DNA of 36,637 bases from a virus, in the IMG/VR virus record IMGVR_UViG_3300032093_000403, positions 1-36,637 of that record; one strand, written 5' to 3'. The first letter of the stretch is position 1, and each line of letters opens with the position of its first letter. The notes under the pieces were generated by a model that was not told where the DNA came from, did not search any database, and saw only the letters and a program-made list of their open reading frames with translations. Below, piece after piece: positions 1 to 36,637 of the stretch. Position numbers and translations under genes: made by a program.

Positions 1-1113
1 GCCATCCCCACCCTTCTTCGGCGGCTGCACATTGGTGATCGGTCCATGCGTCTCAACCACCCCTGCAAAGTCCAGCACCAGGCAATGGTCGGCATGGCTC
101 TTGGGCCGCATGCCTCGCCCTGCCATTTGCACGTAAAGGCTGGCGCTCATGGTTGGGCGCAGCATGGCAATCAAGTCAATGTCAGGATAATCAAAGCCTG
201 TGGTCAGCACATTGGCATTGGTCAGTGCTCGCAAGTGACCGGCCTTGTAGTCAGATAAGATCTGCTCGCGCTCTTTCTTTGGTGTTTCGCCTGTCACGCA
301 CTCAGCCGCCACACCATTGGCATTCAAGACATCGCACACCCGCTGGGCATGCTTGACTCCGGTGCAAAAGAATAGCCAAGCCTTGCGCTCGCCTGCCAAG
401 TCAATTACCTCGCGCACTACACGCTCGTTGTTGTCATCAGTGTCAACTGCTGCCTGTAACTCGCTCTCGATAAACTCTCCGCCCCTTTTATGGACCGCGC
501 TGGTATCAAAGCGCTGGCGGGTAATCTTGCTGCGCAAGGTAGCCAAGTAACCTTTGAAGACCAGCTCCTCGATGCTGACCGGCTCAATCAAGGCATCAAA
601 AAGCGCAGGCTTATCGGTAATCAACCCGTGGCCCAATCTGTAAGGTGTGGCCGTTAAGCCTACCACCCGCAGCTTTGGATTGATGGCCATCAGCTCACCT
701 AGGAACTCTCGGTAACCGCCCTCGTCCTTGTGATTGACTAGGTGGCACTCGTCAATTACTACCAGATCAATGTGGCCAATCTGCTTTGCCTTCTTACGCA
801 CCGACTGGATGCCTGCAAAGGTAATCGGCTCACCCAACTGCCTTTTGCCAATGCTGGCCGAGTAGATACCCAGCGGTGCACCAGGCCAATGCAAGCGCAT
901 TTTTTCAGCATTCTGCTCAATCAATTCTTTGACATGGGTAAGCATTAGAATCTGCGTCTCTGGCCAGCTTTGCAGTGCATCCTTGCACAGTGCTGCTACG
1001 ATATGGCTCTTGCCAGATCCGGTGGGCAACACCAAGCATGGGTTGCCTTTGTTGCCTGCCTCAAACCATGCATATAGCTGGTCAATGGCTCTTTGTTGAT
1101 AGTCACGAAGCAT
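1..1113 (-). CDS. SF2 DNA/RNA helicase, allele A (truncated by window edge)
   Basis: This is the N-terminal 371 codons of a superfamily 2 helicase whose full-length version lies at 33841-35442. Position x here aligns with x+34329 there over the whole length without net indels. Counting by eye, about 20 of the first 360 bases differ (roughly 94% identity), many at codon third positions. The part present corresponds to the whole ATPase core (Walker A, DECH box, motif VI) and stops just before the C-terminal zinc ribbon. Translation starts at the ATG whose complement is 1111-1113, overlapping the upstream gene end by 11 bases, exactly as in the other copy. It is probably the same locus from a second strain rather than a true paralogue. 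Confidence 0.85.
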   Translation of the reverse strand, partial: MLRDYQQRAIDQLYAWFEAGNKGNPCLVLPTGSGKSHIVAALCKDALQSWPETQILMLTHVKELIEQNAEKMRLHWPGAPLGIYSASIGKRQLGEPITFAGIQSVRKKAKQIGHIDLVVIDECHLVNHKDEGGYREFLGELMAINPKLRVVGLTATPYRLGHGLITDKPALFDALIEPVSIEELVFKGYLATLRSKITRQRFDTSAVHKRGGEFIESELQAAVDTDDNNERVVREVIDLAGERKAWLFFCTGVKHAQRVCDVLNANGVAAECVTGETPKKEREQILSDYKAGHLRALTNANVLTTGFDYPDIDLIAMLRPTMSASLYVQMAGRGMRPKSHADHCLVLDFAGVVETHGPITNVQPPKKGGDG

Positions 1114-1486
1114 TAACATGATCCAATCTTGTCAGCAAAAACAGCAGCGCCAGCTGAATGCTCTGCGGTACTTTCTGCCGGTTCGCTTTGTAATTGCACA
1201 GGGTCGCTTCAGTGACGCCAAGTTTTTCACACAGCTGCAAGTTCTTGAGTTGCAACGTGCGCTGAATCTTGCGTACATCTGCGCCTCTCATAGCTGGCAC
1301 ATACCCTTCAGCCTGCGCCAAGTCGGTCAGTCGCTGTTGCGCTTGCAGGACTTCTGGCGATATACAGTCTTCGCTGCGGCGCGGTGTGTTGAAGTATGAG
1401 TTTTTCATTTTAGTGCCTCCACAATTCGGGCATCCGTACTTGCCCAGGTAATCAGGAAAATCGTATTTGCAGTATTTGCAGATCAT
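1103..1486 (-). CDS. Zinc-ribbon plus helix-turn-helix protein
   Basis: A 127-residue protein with an N-terminal four-cysteine zinc ribbon (C3, C6, C19, C22) followed by a helix-turn-helix-like segment around residues 78-108 (LCEKLGVTEATLCNYKANRQ). The architecture resembles the type II toxin-antitoxin MqsA/YgiT-like or XRE-type regulators, but no toxin partner is visible. The last 11 bases overlap the start of the helicase gene, so the two are probably translated together. The Shine-Dalgarno is weak because a GC-rich hairpin sits directly upstream of the ATG. The allele at 35432-36339 has two different genes in this place. DNA-binding regulator is an inference; the family is not certain. Confidence 0.7.
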   Translation of the reverse strand: MICKYCKYDFPDYLGKYGCPNCGGTKMKNSYFNTPRRSEDCISPEVLQAQQRLTDLAQAEGYVPAMRGADVRKIQRTLQLKNLQLCEKLGVTEATLCNYKANRQKVPQSIQLALLFLLTRLDHVNAS

Positions 1487-1493
1487 GGTGTTA

Positions 1494-1509
1494 CCCGGCT
1501 TGCGCCAGG
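1494..1509 (-). other. Imperfect GC hairpin at gene start
   Basis: Inverted repeat CCCGGC-TTGC-GCCAGG with one mismatch, ending 8 bases upstream of the ATG of the zinc-ribbon/HTH gene. Its first 13 bases (CCCGGCTTGCGCC) recur exactly at 1781-1793, also in a gene leader. It may modulate translation or stabilise mRNA; no T-run follows on the minus strand, so it is not an intrinsic terminator for these genes. Confidence 0.4.
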
Positions 1510-1518
1510 CGAGTTAAT

Positions 1519-1758
1519 TTACCAGCTAGAGTAATGATCGGATGACAGGCGGCGGTTTGCTGCGTCCTCGGCATCAATCGCCAGATCGGCTTCCATCTGA
1601 GCGATACGCTGATCTTCGGCTGCGCGTTCTGCCGGGCTAAGGCATGACAGGAAAAAGGCGTAAGCGCGGCTTTCTTCGCACTGGTCGAACGCTTTAAGCA
1701 TTTGGCCAAGTTCGTTAATGACTGCAATGCGGTGGTCGGCTGTGTATGTAATCTGCAT
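1519..1758 (-). CDS. Small protein of unknown function (79 aa)
   Basis: A 79-residue protein starting MQITYTADHRIAVINELGQM, with an acidic, alanine-rich helical second half (residues 40-70). The ATG at 1758 is preferred over upstream starts because GGAG lies 8 bases before it on the minus strand. No domain is recognised. It occurs only in allele A of the variable locus next to the helicase, between two GC hairpins. The composition and short length are typical of early accessory phage proteins; nothing in it supports a function. Confidence 0.6.
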   Translation of the reverse strand: MQITYTADHRIAVINELGQMLKAFDQCEESRAYAFFLSCLSPAERAAEDQRIAQMEADLAIDAEDAANRRLSSDHYSSW

Positions 1759-1779
1759 TGTATATTCTCCGATAGTGAT

Positions 1780-1797
1780 GCCCGGCTTGCGCCGGGC
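1780..1797 (-). other. Perfect GC hairpin in intergenic leader
   Basis: Perfect inverted repeat GCCCGGC-TTGC-GCCGGGC (7-bp stem, 4-base loop) between the 89-aa gene and the 79-aa gene. Read on the plus strand it is followed by GGTTTTATTA and would look like a terminator of antisense transcription. Read on the minus strand, the sense strand of the genes, it lies in the leader of the 79-aa gene without a T-run. It shares 13 identical bases with the hairpin at 1494. Confidence 0.5.
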
Positions 1798-1804
1798 GGT
1801 TTTA

Positions 1805-2074
1805 TTAGAATCCGATATGTCTGAAGTTGCTCGGTTTAGCGTATCCACCATTCCCGCGCATACCGTGATAGCGGATATCGCTTGCGTCGTTCAGATTGTA
1901 TTCGCCAGAATCGTTAGCGTTGAACGTAGCCCAGCCGGTGTGCTGCTTTTTGCCAGCAATCGTTGTCATTGTTAGGCCAGAGATGGTAGCAATCTTTGAA
2001 TTCATACGCTCCCAAATGAATGCCGTCACTTCCTTAGTTTCGCTGCCTATCGTTAGCTTTACAGTTGCACGCAT
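1805..2074 (-). CDS. Small protein of unknown function (89 aa)
   Basis: An 89-residue protein starting MRATVKLTIGSETKEVTAFI. The start at 2074 is supported by AGGGG six bases upstream on the minus strand; the open frame extends further but without a better signal. The N-terminal half alternates hydrophobic and polar residues like a small beta-rich fold, and the C-terminal half is rich in Gly, Asn, Tyr and His. No family is recognised. It is the first gene after a 120-bp AT-rich gap containing a palindrome, so it may be separately controlled. Only allele A carries it. Confidence 0.6.
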   Translation of the reverse strand: MRATVKLTIGSETKEVTAFIWERMNSKIATISGLTMTTIAGKKQHTGWATFNANDSGEYNLNDASDIRYHGMRGNGGYAKPSNFRHIGF

Positions 2075-2194
2075 TTTTATCCCCTGGTTAGTGACGCTGC
2101 AATATGCTGCGTCCATGTAGAGATAATAGACTAAAATCATTTTAGTGTGTTTGATTGTTTCTATCGAATAGACCAGATTAATAGTTATAAATTA
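2075..2194 (-). promoter_or_regulatory. AT-rich intergenic region with candidate operator
   Basis: A 120-bp non-coding gap in an otherwise tightly packed minus-strand operon. It is strongly AT-rich and contains a perfect palindrome, ACTAAAAT-C-ATTTTAGT (2130-2146). A TATTAT hexamer (complement of 2122-2127) lies just downstream of the palindrome in the minus direction and could be a -10 element, though no good -35 is visible. A repressor or activator site controlling the 89-, 79- and 127-aa genes is a reasonable inference. Confidence 0.4.
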
Positions 2195-2539
2195 TTAAAT
2201 AATATTTTTTGTTTTTAATATGGCTTCAATGGCACGGGCAAATGCAAGATTGTCAACACGCGCTTCCCAAAGCAAACTCTTGATCTCCTCGTCGGTCAGC
2301 CCAACCCACTCGCGCTCACTGCACTTAACGCAGTACAGCGCCCACCCTTCCGATGCTTGCTTGCCGCATCCGGCGCAACCTTCTTCATTCTGTGACTTTC
2401 CAAAGCCCGCCTTTGAATAATCCGGTTCAGGCTGTTTATTCAGTGTGTTTATCACGCGCTGTATCAGGGCGTTTGTTATCTCGGGTTTCTCAATTGCCGT
2501 GGTCAGTATCTCAACCAGCCTTTGGTTTGTAACAATCAT
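2195..2539 (-). CDS. Small modular protein with zinc knuckle and C-terminal LTDEEI module
   Basis: A 114-residue protein. The ATG at 2539 has GGGGAG five bases upstream and overlaps the stop of the previous gene (ATGA). The middle has a CxxC-x11-CxxC zinc site (C55, C58, C70, C73). The C-terminal 35 residues, beginning [19 protein letters not shown], are nearly the same as the end of the 195-aa protein at 35432-36019, whose N-terminal part is unrelated. This shows a shared exchangeable module. Function unknown; a role in early take-over of the host is possible but only a guess. Confidence 0.7.
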   Translation of the reverse strand: MIVTNQRLVEILTTAIEKPEITNALIQRVINTLNKQPEPDYSKAGFGKSQNEEGCAGCGKQASEGWALYCVKCSEREWVGLTDEEIKSLLWEARVDNLAFARAIEAILKTKNII

Positions 2540-2793
2540 TGTTCTCCCCTTGCGCGGATAGCGTCGGCACATTCCTGATTGTCACGATATTTGTATTCGC
2601 TGCAATCATCAGTGATCTGAATTTCATCAACCGGCTGTTCGCACACCTTCGCACACGCCTCGCGTTCGGCTTGTACCGTTGGCTGTTCTGCATAAAGCGG
2701 TTGCCACGCTGCTCTCTCCTCTGACCTTGTGCTGGGTGAATCAGAATAACTCCAGCGACCGTTGCGAAATATTCTCCAAATCGCTGGCTTCAT
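2536..2793 (-). CDS. Small modular early protein (85 aa), allele A
   Basis: An 85-residue protein starting [18 protein letters not shown]. Residues 1-34 form a Trp-rich module ending WQPLYAE. Residues 42-82 form a second module with EREACAKVCE and ADAIRAR. Its counterpart at 36336-36560 matches the first half closely and diverges in the middle, keeping the IRAR end. Start and stop codons overlap the neighbours (ATGA at both ends), implying translational coupling. Both modules are, to my knowledge, common in phage early proteins without a known role. Confidence 0.75.
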   Translation of the reverse strand: MKPAIWRIFRNGRWSYSDSPSTRSEERAAWQPLYAEQPTVQAEREACAKVCEQPVDEIQITDDCSEYKYRDNQECADAIRARGEQ

Positions 2794-2870
2794 TGTTTGC
2801 CTCTTAATTTTATAATTCGTGCAGCCATAAACCAGCCCTCATTTTCAAGTAACTTTGCGCACTGCTCTCG
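2744..2870. repeat. 127-bp exact direct repeat, internal copy
   Basis: These 127 bases are identical to the last 127 bases of the window (36511-36637); the preceding bases differ (A at 2743, T at 36510). The repeat covers the start of the 85/74-aa genes and the end of the 76-aa gene. See the findings: it most likely marks the point where the assembly closes on itself. Confidence 0.95.
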
Positions 2871-3020
2871 CTCATCCTGCACACTATTGACCAATACTTT
2901 GGCCCAGCTCTCAACGATCTGCATATCAAGCTCAACCAGCAAGTCTTCTATTGTGTCCCCATGCCCAGTGGCATAGCCGCGCTGCATCATCCATTGAGCC
3001 AATGTCTCTTTGTCACTCAT
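2790..3020 (-). CDS. Small modular early protein (76 aa)
   Basis: A 76-residue protein starting MSDKETLAQWMMQRGYATGH. GGGG lies six bases upstream of the ATG at 3020; an adjacent ATG at 3023 is an alternative. The C-terminal half has the DEREQCAKLLE...AARIIKLRG pattern, which matches the EREACAKV...AIRAR module of the neighbouring 85- and 74-aa proteins. The gene overlaps both neighbours. Its last 27 codons are repeated at the right end of the window. Function unknown. Confidence 0.7.
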   Translation of the reverse strand: MSDKETLAQWMMQRGYATGHGDTIEDLLVELDMQIVESWAKVLVNSVQDEREQCAKLLENEGWFMAARIIKLRGKQ

Positions 3021-3288
3021 CATCTTCCCCTTTCTCATATTCCCAAATGGCATTCTCTAAAGCCTTCTGAGCCATTGGAGCGTCTTCCATAATTACTGGC
3101 ACGTTTGGCGATTCAATATATTGCTCTAACACCAGCAAGCCCAACATTGCAGCAAAGTACAATTTGTCAGACAGATCTTGATGAACTAAGGGTGTGACCA
3201 CCACATCAACTGGCATCTCCTCTGGCTCGTTAAGCTCGAACCAAACAGCCTGGTCGTTCTCAAGCATCCATGCAATTGGTTTATTCAT
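3013..3288 (-). CDS. Small modular early protein (91 aa)
   Basis: A 91-residue acidic protein starting MNKPIAWMLENDQAVWFE; the PxAWM opening is the same motif seen in the other small early proteins of this phage. The centre (YFAAMLGLLVLEQYI) is a hydrophobic or amphipathic helix, and the C-terminus is strongly acidic (EYEKGEDDE). The ATG overlaps the stop of the exonuclease gene (ATGA), so it is co-translated with it. No family is recognised beyond the shared motif. Confidence 0.7.
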   Translation of the reverse strand: MNKPIAWMLENDQAVWFELNEPEEMPVDVVVTPLVHQDLSDKLYFAAMLGLLVLEQYIESPNVPVIMEDAPMAQKALENAIWEYEKGEDDE

Positions 3289-4313
3289 CCCACAATCCTC
3301 GCATTAAACTCCCGTCTAAATTCCATCGCAAACTCGTCTGGGTTGGCACACACATCAGGATTAGCCAAGATTTCTTTCGATCCAAAAACGTGCATATCCG
3401 GCTCACCGTTAATCACATCCTTGCCATTAATAACGTAAATGGCCTGCCACCCGTTCTCGCTTTCCTTGCGCTGGTACGGCACAAGATCAGGATGCAACAC
3501 ATGGCTGTCGCAACCTTCACGTTGCCATTCAATCGGGATGCCATCCGATTCATGTCTCTCGCATCTCCAACTGCTATCTTCCTTGGCCGTTGAATGGGCG
3601 CATGTGCGGCAGTTAACATGTTTGGTGGTTTTGGTCTGGTGGCAAAACTCATGCGCTGCGCAGAACTTGCATTGATACCAAGATGGGTCGGTGCTAATCG
3701 GTGGCGGCAGGCGGTCAGACAAGGTGATGCGGTGACCGCGCTGGATGAGTTTCTCAGCCGTTTCCTTGTCATACTTTACGCGCTCGGTATAGATGCGGTC
3801 ATCGTCCTTGCAGATGGCCACATATAGTGCTCGATCAATCTTGGTGCCATGCATATAAGCCTGCATCTGGCCATAGTGCATGGGCTTGGATTTTTCCACC
3901 CCTTCTTTGACCATCTCGTCAAAAGACTTCTTGCTGTGGGTTTTGAACTCCACCACATGCCGAGCTTTGGGCGCTTCGGGCACGCCACTCTCAGCAATCC
4001 CGTCCAAGCTGCCTGAAACGTGCGCACCGAAGTCCACCCTTGTCTGCTTGCCGCTACCGTTGCGAATATCAATCCCGATGGCACGAAGATCGTTGATTAA
4101 TGTCGTTTCTTCAAGTTGGCCCCTGCGGAAAAGCCGCAAGATCCGCCCAGAAAATTGCTCTTGTACAGCCCAGCGAAATGACAGCCAGAGCCATCTGTCA
4201 CAGGGATGACCCAAGGTTGACGCACCCAGATGAGGCCGAGGAGGCTCATTTTTTGTCTCATGGTGCTTGTCAATCAGCGCAGAAATGCTATTCTCTGAAT
4301 TGGGGATTTTCAT
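3285..4313 (-). CDS. Cas4/RecB-like PD-(D/E)XK exonuclease with probable Fe-S cluster
   Basis: A 342-residue nuclease of the PD-(D/E)XK superfamily. Visible residues are C38, E69/E70, D104 in GSLDG, E122 and K124 in VEFKTH, and the QMQAYM motif (Q149, Y153). C38 together with C215, C218 and C224 gives the one-plus-three cysteine layout of the 4Fe-4S 'iron staple' known from Cas4 and AddB. A further cysteine cluster (C235, C238, C251) follows. It lies in the leftward operon after the ssDNA-binding protein and Sak4-like recombinase, so it probably resects DNA ends for phage recombination. A GGAG Shine-Dalgarno precedes the ATG. Fe-S binding is inferred from the pattern only. Confidence 0.88.
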   Translation of the reverse strand: MKIPNSENSISALIDKHHETKNEPPRPHLGASTLGHPCDRWLWLSFRWAVQEQFSGRILRLFRRGQLEETTLINDLRAIGIDIRNGSGKQTRVDFGAHVSGSLDGIAESGVPEAPKARHVVEFKTHSKKSFDEMVKEGVEKSKPMHYGQMQAYMHGTKIDRALYVAICKDDDRIYTERVKYDKETAEKLIQRGHRITLSDRLPPPISTDPSWYQCKFCAAHEFCHQTKTTKHVNCRTCAHSTAKEDSSWRCERHESDGIPIEWQREGCDSHVLHPDLVPYQRKESENGWQAIYVINGKDVINGEPDMHVFGSKEILANPDVCANPDEFAMEFRREFNARIVG

Positions 4314-9009: not shown

Positions 9010-10060
9010 ACCAGATTGTGCTTGGAATTTGAAAGACCTTGAAGCTGTTCCAAAAAATGGCATCAAAGTCATGAGCACTTTTGCTTGTGGTGGTGGCTCT
9101 AGCATGGGATATAAACGCGCTGGATGTGAAGTGATTGCAGCCAACGACATTGACCCAGAAATGGCGTGGCATTACAAGCTGAATATCAATCCAAAGCATT
9201 ATTTCCTTTGTCCAATTGGTGAATTACTAGAAAAGGAATTGCCAGAGGAACTCTACAATTTAGATATTCTTGACGGTTCGCCGCCTTGTTCTACTTTTAG
9301 CATGGCAGGCAGCAGAGAAAAGGCTTGGGGCAAAAACAAGCACTTTCGAGAAGGCCAAGCAAAGCAAGTTTTATCTGACTTGTTTTTTGACTATCTTGAC
9401 TTAATAGGAAAGCTCAAGCCAAAGGTAGCTATTGCCGAGAACGTCAAGGGAATGTTGATTGGCAATGCCAAAGGCTATACAAAGATGGTAATGGCACGAT
9501 TCAAAGAGTTGGGTTATCGGCCACAGTTGTTCTTGTTAAATGGTGCAGATTGTGGTGTTCCACAGAGGCGTGAACGGGTTTTCTTTGTGGCCATTCGTAA
9601 TGACATTAAAGTTCATCCATTAAAATTAGCGCCAAAACATCAATGGATTAATTGCGAAAATGCTACAAAAGATTTAAAAATAACTTCAGATGAATTGGAA
9701 GAAGTTAAATTTACTGCTAATACAGATTTAATCTGGTGGCCTAAAACTCGTCCAGGTGAGGATTATGGAGATGCTGTTAAACGTAGTGGACAACCAGTCA
9801 AATTATGGAATTCAAAAAAACTTGATCCAAATGCACCATCTTTAACATTGACCGCAACTCATACAATGTTCAAACATTGGAAAGAACCAAGACATCTAAC
9901 GTTTCGTGAATACGTGAGATTGGGAGCATTTCCAGATGATTATCAAGCTAAATCAGACAAGATCGGCAAGTACATGATTGGGATGAGTGTTCCTCCTAAA
10001 ATGACTGAACAGGTCGCTCGTGCAGTAATTGACCAATGGCTTTTGCCAAAGGATAAATAA
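8996..10060 (+). CDS. C5-cytosine DNA methyltransferase
   Basis: A 354-residue protein with the ordered motifs of the DNA C5-methyltransferase family. These are the SAM-binding motif I (MSTFACGGGSSMGYKRAG, residues 26-43), catalytic loop SPPCST with C98, AENV at 147-150 and QRRERVFFV at 190-198; after the target-recognition region come LTATHTMFKHW and a C-terminal motif X-like segment. Motif I is unusual (FACGGGSSMG rather than FAGxGGxxxG). ATG 8996 is used; 8999 is equally possible. The frame is open further upstream inside the ParB-like gene. It is AT-richer than the terminase genes that follow, suggesting separate acquisition. Likely role: protecting phage DNA from restriction. Confidence 0.88.
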   Translation: MMINKPDCAWNLKDLEAVPKNGIKVMSTFACGGGSSMGYKRAGCEVIAANDIDPEMAWHYKLNINPKHYFLCPIGELLEKELPEELYNLDILDGSPPCSTFSMAGSREKAWGKNKHFREGQAKQVLSDLFFDYLDLIGKLKPKVAIAENVKGMLIGNAKGYTKMVMARFKELGYRPQLFLLNGADCGVPQRRERVFFVAIRNDIKVHPLKLAPKHQWINCENATKDLKITSDELEEVKFTANTDLIWWPKTRPGEDYGDAVKRSGQPVKLWNSKKLDPNAPSLTLTATHTMFKHWKEPRHLTFREYVRLGAFPDDYQAKSDKIGKYMIGMSVPPKMTEQVARAVIDQWLLPKDK

Positions 10061-33488: not shown

Positions 33489-33844
33489 AAAACATCCTTA
33501 TGGTAATCAAAAAAGACGCTGATTTTTGCCTTGGCATCATCAGCACCTTTTCCCACTATACACCAATATTTCACACCTTCCAAATACTGGATCCAGTTCT
33601 TTTGCTCTGCGCTTAAGTTCCCGCCCTTGGTGCGCTTCATCTCGATCCACAGCCGCCAGGCTGGGATAAACAGATCCGGCACACCTGAAGACACACCCTC
33701 TGCCTTTAGCCGCCCAGCAGTAGCTGCGCTTCGATAGCCTCCGTTGGCAATGGCAAAGATGCGAACATCTGGCCATGTCTGCCGGAACCAGCGCACCAGC
33801 TCTCGCTGTTCTTCGTGCTCGGTTGGGATTCGGTCAGTAGTCAA
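33485..33844 (-). CDS. VRR-NUC domain nuclease
   Basis: A 119-residue single-domain nuclease of the VRR-NUC family. Motifs are EHEEQRELVRWF (E11), IANGGYRSAATAGRLKAEGV, SGVPDLFIP (D57), WIEMKRTKGG (E68, K70) and the terminal QYLEGVKYWCIVGKG. Start is a TTG (33844), whose AAGGAG is 6 bases upstream; no ATG occurs before the first motif. TTGA overlap with the helicase stop couples them. Such nucleases with an SF2 helicase are common in phages, possibly resolving branched DNA. Confidence 0.88.
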   Translation of the reverse strand: MTTDRIPTEHEEQRELVRWFRQTWPDVRIFAIANGGYRSAATAGRLKAEGVSSGVPDLFIPAWRLWIEMKRTKGGNLSAEQKNWIQYLEGVKYWCIVGKGADDAKAKISVFFDYHKDVL

Positions 33845-35442
33845 TTCCAGCTCCTTTTTATTACCCGATGAAATTTACCGTCCAAGCGGTACTCGATGCT
33901 TTTGGGTGGCTTTGAATTACTCATCTGCACCGACAGGTAATCCAGCCCACGCTCACCTTCCATGTTTGCTGCCTCTGCCAGATTCGCACCACATGAGTTG
34001 GCCATCGTAAATAATTGCTGCATGGCCTTTTGGCCTGCATACCCGTCATGCAGAACAGGCAGGTATTCGGTAATCGGCTTGTCACACAGACTGCCATAAT
34101 AGGTGCAGGCCAGCATCATCTTCCCGCTGGCTCGGCTGATGTGGATGCGCCAATTCCAGCTACTAACCTCAAGGTCTTTACCATCCAACCCCATGATGTC
34201 AACGTCTCGCAGTGCCAGCTTTTTCTTTTCCGGCTCTGGGAAGGCATGGCCGCAGGCAGGGCAGATTGCTGCTGAAATATGGACCAGCTCGCCGCAGTTG
34301 TCGCAGACCTTGACCGGCGCTTCTCCATTCCCATCCCCACCCTTCTTCGGCGGCTGCACGTTGGTGATCGGCCCATGCGTCTCAACCACCCCTGCAAAGT
34401 CCAGCACTAGGCAATGATCGGCATGGCTCTTGGGCCGCATGCCTCGGCCTGCCATTTGCACATAAAGGCTGGCGCTCATGGTTGGGCGCAACATGGCAAT
34501 CAAGTCAATGTCGGGATAATCAAAGCCAGTTGTCAACACATTGGCATTGGTCAGTGCTCGCAAGTGACCGGCCTTGTAGTCAGCTAAGATCTGCTCGCGC
34601 TCTTTCTTTGGCGTTTCTCCTGTTACGCACTCAGCTGCCACCCCATTAGAATTCAAGACATCGCACACCCGCTGGGCATGCTTGACTCCGGTGCAAAAGA
34701 ATAGCCAAGCCTTGCGCTCGCCTGCCAGGTCAACTACCTCGCGCACCACACGCTCGTTGTTGTCATCAGTGTCAACTGCTGCCTGCAACTCGCTCTCGAT
34801 AAACTCGCCGCCACGCTTATGGACCGAGCTGGTGTCAAAACGCTGCCGAGTGATCTTGCTGCGCAGGGTAGCCAAATAACCTTTGAAGACCAGCTCCTCA
34901 ATGCTGACCGGCTCAATCAAGGCATCAAACAGCGCAGGCTTATCGGTAATCAACCCGTGGCCCAATCTGTAAGGTGTGGCCGTTAAGCCTACCACTCGAA
35001 GCCTTGGATTGATGGCCATCAGCTCGCCGAGAAACTCGCGGTAGCCGCCCTCGTCCTTGTGATTGACCAAGTGGCATTCGTCAATCACTACCAGATCAAT
35101 GTGGCCGATCTGCCGAGCTTTCTTTCGTACCGACTGGATGCCAGCAAAGGTAATCGGTTCGCCCAGTTGCCTCTTGCCAATGCTGGCCGAGTAAATTCCA
35201 AGCGGAGCGCCAGGCCAATGCAAGCGCATCTTCTCGGCATTTTGCTCAATCAATTCCTTGACGTGCGTGAGCATAAGAATCTGCGTCTCAGGCCAGCTTT
35301 GCAGTGCATCCTTGCACAGTGCTGCAACGATGTGGCTCTTGCCAGATCCGGTGGGCAGCACTAGGCATGGGTTGCCTTTATTTCCTGCCTCAAACCACGC
35401 ATATAGCTGGTCAATCGCTCTCTGTTGATAGTCACGAAGCAT
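33841..35442 (-). CDS. SF2 DNA/RNA helicase with zinc ribbon, allele B (complete)
   Basis: A 533-residue superfamily 2 helicase. Walker A PTGSGKS at 30-36, DECH box at 121-124, GLTATP at 152-157, the motif VI QMAGRGMRP at 329-337, and a zinc ribbon C380, C383, C394, C397 followed by a C-terminal phage-specific domain. The first 371 codons have a divergent counterpart at 1-1113. It likely works with the VRR-NUC nuclease that follows. Its start overlaps the upstream gene by 11 bases. Confidence 0.9.
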   Translation of the reverse strand: MLRDYQQRAIDQLYAWFEAGNKGNPCLVLPTGSGKSHIVAALCKDALQSWPETQILMLTHVKELIEQNAEKMRLHWPGAPLGIYSASIGKRQLGEPITFAGIQSVRKKARQIGHIDLVVIDECHLVNHKDEGGYREFLGELMAINPRLRVVGLTATPYRLGHGLITDKPALFDALIEPVSIEELVFKGYLATLRSKITRQRFDTSSVHKRGGEFIESELQAAVDTDDNNERVVREVVDLAGERKAWLFFCTGVKHAQRVCDVLNSNGVAAECVTGETPKKEREQILADYKAGHLRALTNANVLTTGFDYPDIDLIAMLRPTMSASLYVQMAGRGMRPKSHADHCLVLDFAGVVETHGPITNVQPPKKGGDGNGEAPVKVCDNCGELVHISAAICPACGHAFPEPEKKKLALRDVDIMGLDGKDLEVSSWNWRIHISRASGKMMLACTYYGSLCDKPITEYLPVLHDGYAGQKAMQQLFTMANSCGANLAEAANMEGERGLDYLSVQMSNSKPPKSIEYRLDGKFHRVIKRSWN

Positions 35443-36019
35443 TCTTTTCTCTCAGTAATGTCTCAATGACACGGGCAAATTTAAGATTGTCGACCCGTGT
35501 TTCCCAGAGCAAACTTTTAATTTCCTCATCCGTTAAACCTTGCCAAGGCTTCGGCAGTCCTGAATATAAAGGCCAGCCATCAATTAAAGGTTCGCCTGTC
35601 ATTGGATCGTATTTCCATTTTTGCGCCGGTTCAGGATGTGGTAGGACGGCATAGAGTGGCATTGTTGCTGTTGGCTTACCATGCGCCCATACCTTCCAAT
35701 CCGTTCTTCCCATATCGCTTTCGTTCATCCACGCCACCGGCTCCGGTTCAGGCTGCGCGGTCGGGACTGCTCTCCCAAGTTTCCGAATGTCTTTTTCGTA
35801 CTTATCAGCCAACATTTCTCGAAGACGCTTTTCCTTCTCGTACATATCTTTCCAGTCAACATCCGGTTCAGGTGCGCTAAGTCGGGCGCGGAATAATCGA
35901 ACAGCATCGCAGAAACGATGAAATGAATCTCCGCTCATTACATTGGATGTTGCTTTATCAATACTGAGAAACGCATCCAGCACAGACTGCGCTTCCTCTT
36001 TGGTTAGTGTGATGGTCAT
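35432..36019 (-). CDS. Modular early protein (195 aa), allele B
   Basis: A 195-residue protein. Residues 1-48 are an N-terminal helical unit; 53-85 are a charged helix; 94-127 hold a PEPVAWMNE...TMPLYAVLP module; 145-155 [13 protein letters not shown] repeats the PLY theme; residues 161-195 ([19 protein letters not shown]...) correspond to the end of the 114-aa protein of allele A. GGAGGAG lies before the ATG at 36019, which also overlaps the previous stop. Overlaps the helicase gene by 11 bases. Function unknown. Confidence 0.7.
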
Positions 36020-36339
36020 TTTTTCTCCTCCGTATATATAGGCTCCCACCCTTCACCGGGCGAGCGTTTAGTAAACATAAGCCCTCGAATGCCACGTCGA
36101 GTGCGTTTTACCCAACCAATGGGCGCAGAATCTAAATCTACAGGTGTGGCTTTGTCAGCATCACTTTCGCGACCGGCCAGCAATCTTTTCGTTGATGTCA
36201 CTTCGTACACCGCAAGAATTTTTGTGACGTAAATTTTTACTGTAGATTCCGCGATAGTTAATTTGCGCGCAATTTCTTTATTGCTTAATCCCTGTTGGAG
36301 CAACTCAAAAACTTGCAATTCTCGCGGTGTAAGTTTCAT
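36016..36339 (-). CDS. LuxR-type HTH protein with C-terminal W-PxY module
   Basis: A 107-residue protein. Residues 1-55 are a GerE/LuxR DNA-binding domain: [20 protein letters not shown] then [20 protein letters not shown]. There is no receiver or autoinducer domain. Residues 73-105 ([11 protein letters not shown] … [11 protein letters not shown]) have the same P-x-W…W-x-P-x-Y layout as the other small early proteins. Likely an early transcriptional regulator, found only in allele B. ATGA overlaps both neighbours. Confidence 0.78.
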
Positions 36340-36560
36340 GCTTTCCTAGCTCGAATCATTGTTGCCAGCGCAAACCCCTTGTCATCCCACGCACCGCAAT
36401 ATTGTTCGACTATCTTGGCGCAAGACTCCCGCTCTAATTCTATTGTTGCCTGCTCTGCATACAGCGGTTGCCAAGCTGCCCTGTCTTCTGACCTTGAGCT
36501 GGGCTTGTCTGAATAACTCCAGCGACCGTTGCGAAATATTCTCCAAATCGCTGGCTTCAT
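36336..36560 (-). CDS. Small modular early protein (74 aa), allele B
   Basis: A 74-residue counterpart of the 85-aa protein at 2536-2793: residues 1-35 are nearly identical ([18 protein letters not shown] and WQPLYAEQ), then [13 protein letters not shown] and ATMIRARKA keep the pattern but not the sequence. The different middle segments indicate recombination within the gene. ATGA overlap at both ends. Confidence 0.75.
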
Positions 36561-36637
36561 TGTTTGCCTCTTAATTTTATAATTCGTGCAGCCATAAACC
36601 AGCCCTCATTTTCAAGTAACTTTGCGCACTGCTCTCG
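36511..36637. repeat. 127-bp exact direct repeat, terminal copy
   Basis: Identical to 2744-2870 over its whole length up to the last base of the window. Joining the end of the window to 2871 restores a complete 76-aa gene. Confidence 0.95.
36557..36637 (-). CDS. Small modular early protein, C-terminal 26 residues only (window edge)
   Basis: The last 27 codons, including the stop, of the same gene as 2790-3020 (…EQCAKLLENEGW…RIIKLRGKQ); the start lies beyond the window. Identical in DNA to the internal copy. Confidence 0.8.
   Translation of the reverse strand, partial: REQCAKLLENEGWFMAARIIKLRGKQ

Follow-up and report, generated by a model that had tools for sequence, protein, structure and literature searches.

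The window, that is, the whole stretch of DNA analysed here, is an IMG/VR record of 36,637 bases, whose terminase shares 81% identity with its counterpart in MW202867 and 71% with the one in Xanthomonas phage PBR31; MW202867 derives from groundwater of Manatee Spring, and its gene annotations include a P22-like portal and coat. The two ends of the record are diverged variants of one region comprising the helicase and a set of small genes (1-2870 versus 34330-36637, 88-95% identity, and 88% for 2636-2870 versus 36403-36637), with copies of the helicase gene at 1-1113 and 33841-35442. The preliminary description had spoken of two alleles, which this comparison bears out, and the two variants were likely brought together by an assembler joining population variants. 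In the following, unit a denotes the motif PVAW..PLY, unit b EREACAK..IRARG, and unit c WVGLTDEEI..KLKEKN; EREACAK and WVGLTDEEI are the first anchors of b and c, respectively.

All genes of the region lie on the minus strand, where the exonuclease (3285..4313) forms the conserved upstream border of a variable slot and the helicase (33841..35442 in allele 2, with the second copy starting at 1113) the conserved downstream border. In allele 1, the four ORFs of 91, 76, 85 and 114 aa at 2195-3288 are present as described previously. P91 (3013..3288), the first gene of the array, has a 4-nt overlap with the stop of the exonuclease gene and opens with PIAW, weakly resembling unit a (3232-3282, 7.4 bits). 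P76 (2790..3020) consists of a head of its own and a divergent tail b (2793-2885, 23.8 bits), and its end, AAGAGGCAAACAATGA in the junction sequence of the window, contains the Shine-Dalgarno (SD) sequence and the start of P85. P85 (2536..2793) combines an a-like head (2680-2793) with a tail b (2539-2679, 54.3 bits), and within its IRARGEQ codons the sequence contains a Shine-Dalgarno motif, AAGGGGAG (2544..2551), ahead of the ATGA start of P114. P114 (2195..2539) carries a head, a CxxC..CxxC knuckle (2321-2377) and a tail c (2201-2311, 53.0 bits), and after it the coupled chain of allele 1 breaks. The last gene ahead of the helicase, encoding the 127-aa P127 (1103..1486), has an 11-nt overlap with it; P127 contains an HTH and two CxxC pairs and is weakly similar to MqsA-type antitoxins or Xre regulators.

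The ORFs of 74, 107 and 195 aa in allele 2 (35432-36560) are likewise present, outside the interval to which the preliminary description was attached. P74 (36336..36560) is the allelic counterpart of P85, with the same a-like head and another b interior (36342-36437, 33.8 bits); at the P76/P85 junction 127 bases are identical between the alleles, beyond which the two drift apart and similarity is lost within the interior of tail b. P107 (36016..36339) joins a LuxR-type HTH, matching Pfam GerE at 2.4e-15 with 56.3 bits against a gathering cut-off of 23.5, to a weak a-like end (36031-36123, 8.1 bits), and its end, GGAGGAGAAAAAATGA, contains the SD and the start of P195. P195 (35432..36019) is composed of a helical head, unit a (35645-35749) and tail c (35438-35548), and overlaps the helicase start by 11 nt; the NAS ending common to P127 and P195 follows from this overlap, which dictates it. 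The partner domains named previously were thus recovered, the LuxR HTH in P107 through GerE, the knuckle in P114 from its sequence, and the helical N-terminus in P195 in an AF2 model.

Between the exonuclease and the helicase, three different gene sets occupy the slot, those of allele 1, allele 2 and MW202867. In MW202867, with the same exonuclease and helicase, the slot holds one 81-aa gene made of a common head, MTREDIIRMAREQG, and tail b, with an ATGA overlap on both sides; the coupling is unbroken there, as it is from P76 onward in that portion of allele 2 which was sequenced. The annotated helicase of MW202867 (7740-9545) starts too far upstream, and this masks the 81-aa b protein at 9331-9576. 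Judged from their position, the genes of the slot are probably early. A gene-neighbour survey of the other loci, made with window proteins, gave too few matches to establish an early location.

Profiles of the units were built from related viral-contig loci collected with the 85-, 195- and 114-aa proteins, and all ORFs were rescanned. Units b and c proved to be real, in that the above scores of b in P85, P74 and P76, and those of c in P114 and in P195 (45.3 bits), were each reached by 0 of 500 shuffles. The proposal of unit a stood in part: it is strong in P195 only (30.9 bits, 0 of 500 shuffles), moderately supported in P85 and P74, and weak in P107 and P91. These last four proteins score 6.2-8.1 bits in the profile scan, values reached by 0-1 of 500 shuffles, and an hhalign profile comparison gave 62.6% and an E of 7e-5 for P85/P74, the opening of which reads P-A-I-W and not the P-x-A-W claimed. 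The profiles of b and c are unrelated (hhalign 1.4%), and homology between them was rejected. Altogether, 472 unit-bearing proteins were found in 208 loci, two-thirds of the loci with module genes holding at least two, and the nonredundant set of 391 consists mainly of 161 b, 159 c and 50 a-c proteins. Because a match to an exact 8-residue word was needed in the scans, the first anchors look closer to invariant than they are; 232 of the 472 proteins contain no such word, and in these the units are still present with less conserved first anchors. The third-base complementarity between the anchors of a unit is partial for a and c and absent for b.

The units are found recombined, in many phages, with heads that are unrelated, and the mix-and-match arrangement suggested in the preliminary description is thereby strongly supported. 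Tails at least 75% identical sit on heads without detectable similarity in 46 of the 97 pairs of b tails and 146 of the 300 pairs of c tails, some of the tails being 100% identical. Conversely, one head type may carry b or c/a-c tails, as do IKTWxERCEEHPDH (1e-18), RIMSEAYDLAD (7e-18), MTQDEIIEMAQEC (4e-17) and FNxWW (5e-13); among the 128 head pairs listed a few are artefactual, with the previous tail read in another frame, and the four heads named here are clean. In two loci (L006 and L011) the head of P85 is joined to the P76 protein. The profile searches per module therefore found the units with independent, unrelated partners, as mosaic proteins have a similar fragment in common while being otherwise unrelated, and the unrelated heads on near-identical tails contradict one continuous domain without independent partners.

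Exchange also seems to reach inside the tails. Where both DNA anchors of a c pair are at least 90% identical (n = 346), the interior is less than 40% identical in 320 pairs, suggesting that the interior of tail c is replaced as a block; hypervariable interiors between near-identical DNA could reflect replacement by recombination, although this is a guess. Pairs of c tails with the DNA of both anchors 90-100% identical and unrelated interiors occur in L165, L153, L212 and others. In L156 (5954-6526), a full c tail continues in frame into MSDSYDDYEAKI, the opening head of other genes, and this ORF represents two genes fused at the coupler. Some c tails (L150, L169, L192 and L199) are extended by GGEYRN(G/K)ATTERT, followed by a second KLKEKN-like or a KLNQENT end.

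The codons at the ends of both tails are strongly biased. Of the two Arg in the IRARG of tail b, the second is encoded by AGG in 81% and AGA in 13% of cases (n = 144; background 13% and 17%), and the first has no AGG/AGA preference; in the KLKEKN of tail c, K is AAG in 96% (background 50%) and E is GAG in 89% (background 45%), so that KE mostly reads AAGGAG. An ORF starts at the ATGA overlap (-4) after 121 of 144 b and 105 of 183 c tails, with a further 41 c tails followed at -8 and 15 at -11. The share of SD-like junctions is 93% for b and 88% for c, against 44% at other ATGA pairs of the same contigs (ORFs of at least 150 aa), and the anti-SD energies are -8.9, -7.7 and -5.8 kcal/mol, respectively. 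Adjacent module genes overlap in 157 of 261 cases, and only 3 have opposite-strand neighbours. A KLKEKN C-terminus is also found on 6 ORFs without a match to unit c, including membrane-like and zinc-ribbon-like proteins, and all 6 are coupled; IRARG-type ends of a similar kind number 9, and in L107 WQGLTDEEI is joined directly to KLKEKNA.

This plan recurs at every junction of P91-P76-P85-P114 and of P74-P107-P195-helicase in the window, with starts that overlap or abut the upstream stop and an SD motif inside the upstream ORF, a layout supporting the translationally coupled array proposed previously. The C-terminal ends of both tails are dual-coding, specifying protein and a putative ribosome-binding site of the next gene, a feature absent from the preliminary description, and at least for the C-terminal part of each tail this would be an explanation other than docking. 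SD coding accounts for only the last 5-8 tail residues and leaves the first anchors unexplained. The few uncoupled tails retain AGG or AAGGAG, so the codons may be partly inherited and not maintained, and the non-module genes of the operon are likewise coupled. Synonymous conservation is present in the heads too, at a level comparable to that of the units; it is therefore read, except at the SD codons, as the mark of a shared, recombining gene pool, and its reading as a DNA element was rejected since conserved heads have the same pattern.

Both tails are predicted to fold into hairpins of two helices, and their interiors are hypervariable. In the AF2 model of P85 (mean pLDDT 81.6), tail b forms helices 40-52 and 63-82 (blocks with pLDDT 93-95) behind a beta hairpin, and in that of P195 tail c forms helices 174-184 and 188-204, while unit a is poorly predicted. 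Foldseek gave no match at E<=0.001 for P85 against the PDB and viral models or for P195 against the PDB, no family in Pfam or NCBIfam matched the tails, and sequence and fold searches together found no relative of them. A resemblance of c to EF-hands among PDB sequences (E 0.03) was taken as chance, the calcium loop being absent. Hardly any named phage carries the tails, and few bacterial genomes do, with b in 2 of 300 and c in at most 4, within one order; of the GTDB genomes, 4 were found with b, and c is in 4 of these 4. The carriers are uncultured freshwater-type phages, and a literature search found no paper describing such tails or containing the b word.

Based on these findings, we propose that the array is a set of exchangeable early-operon cassettes, in which the tails are helix hairpins and also portable translational couplers, and that the region is an exchangeable slot in the leftward operon of a podovirus; we put the probability of this explanation as a whole at roughly 0.7. 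The slot contains a variable set of tiny genes, each with a variable head, and most of them carry tail b or tail c at the C-terminus, the two being interchangeable; in some, the spacer-like unit a stands ahead of c. The IRARG and KLKEKN codons double as Shine-Dalgarno sequences, and with the stop overlapping the next start (ATGA) the ribosomes would be handed on. As the coupler is carried in the tail, a gene could be inserted, lost or swapped with the chain still translatable, and the short common tail DNA would also act as homology for swaps. We infer that the coupling operates and that tail homology drives exchange, some part of the tail mediating it; the products may be accessory host-takeover or counter-defence factors. 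More speculatively, these phages could possess a recombinase-free cassette system, wherein the tails are standard connectors giving a common fold, the ribosome-binding site of the next gene and homology for shuffling, and wherein a single slot lets the phage population go on sampling novel small anti-host proteins, the tail interiors being diversified too.

The tails could instead be adaptors, b and c docking one host or phage target and being conserved for protein binding, with the heads as effectors. The conservation of the first anchors as protein, inexplicable by SD, the predicted folding of the tails into helix hairpins, and heads that include a LuxR HTH and zinc knuckles speak for this reading; however, no target or solved relative emerged from the sequence and fold searches, the interior, where specificity would be expected to reside, is hypervariable, and the KLKEKN end is retained on proteins without the rest of c, so that we regard docking as possible but doubtful. 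Still less can be said for descent of the array from a single ordinary paralogous family, as divergent copies of one domain without true exchange: its members are adjacent and have tails in common, but b and c are unrelated by profile, identical tails are found with unrelated heads, and a given head with different tails, leaving this the most improbable of the readings considered.

In-frame mobile palindromic elements are known from Rickettsia, and each unit might be such an element, a DNA or RNA hairpin with the two anchors as its arms. At third codon positions, the 5′ anchors of many loci have mostly G/T and the 3′ anchors mostly C/A, and for a and c the arm duplex energy is better than in synonymous redraws, with a mean z of about -1. 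However, the arm duplex of b has no effect (z -0.07), whole-unit folding reaches z values of only -0.7 for a and -0.2 for both b and c, and the heads have comparable codon conservation, which makes this origin improbable. An RNA hairpin between the anchors, the signal of which is weak for a and c and absent for b, does not appear to be general.

Small domains are recombined in regulators of DNA viruses in the case of BRO/KilA-N/ANT, whereas the units here are about 40 aa and dual-coding, and none of those domains was reported for window proteins in the Pfam search. The cassettes of our proposal resemble termination-reinitiation coupling in the ATGA overlap and in the SD in the 3′ end of the upstream gene, where an SD inside the upstream gene constrains the upstream C-terminus (PMC6728339). 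This SD-imposed constraint is already known; what differs here is that it is built into a pair of protein tails that recur on unrelated heads and are transferable. Phage protein mosaicism, far more of which is expected in proteins of unknown function, likewise involves fragments common to otherwise unrelated proteins, but the examples stressed in that study are polymerases, tail fibres, tail spikes and endolysins and not tiny genes that are coupled (PMC10684548). Ea22, with a short N-terminus, a coiled coil and a C-terminal domain differing between phages, and the lambda exo-xis genes are similarly small early leftward genes beside recombination genes (PMC10834534). Lambda Ea22 matches phrog_250/368 and the a-c proteins faintly match phrog_60/660; kinship with Ea22 was rejected, the PHROGs being different and no Pfam Ead/Ea22 appearing among the matches listed.

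Tiny early phage genes are many, of unknown function and hard to group by homology, and the two tails described here group hundreds of them and suggest how such arrays can change in content and remain expressible. Should reporters confirm the coupler, accessory phage proteins could be found and screened with the tail sequences as a tag, and this would be a protein motif shaped, throughout an entire gene pool, by the translation of the next gene.
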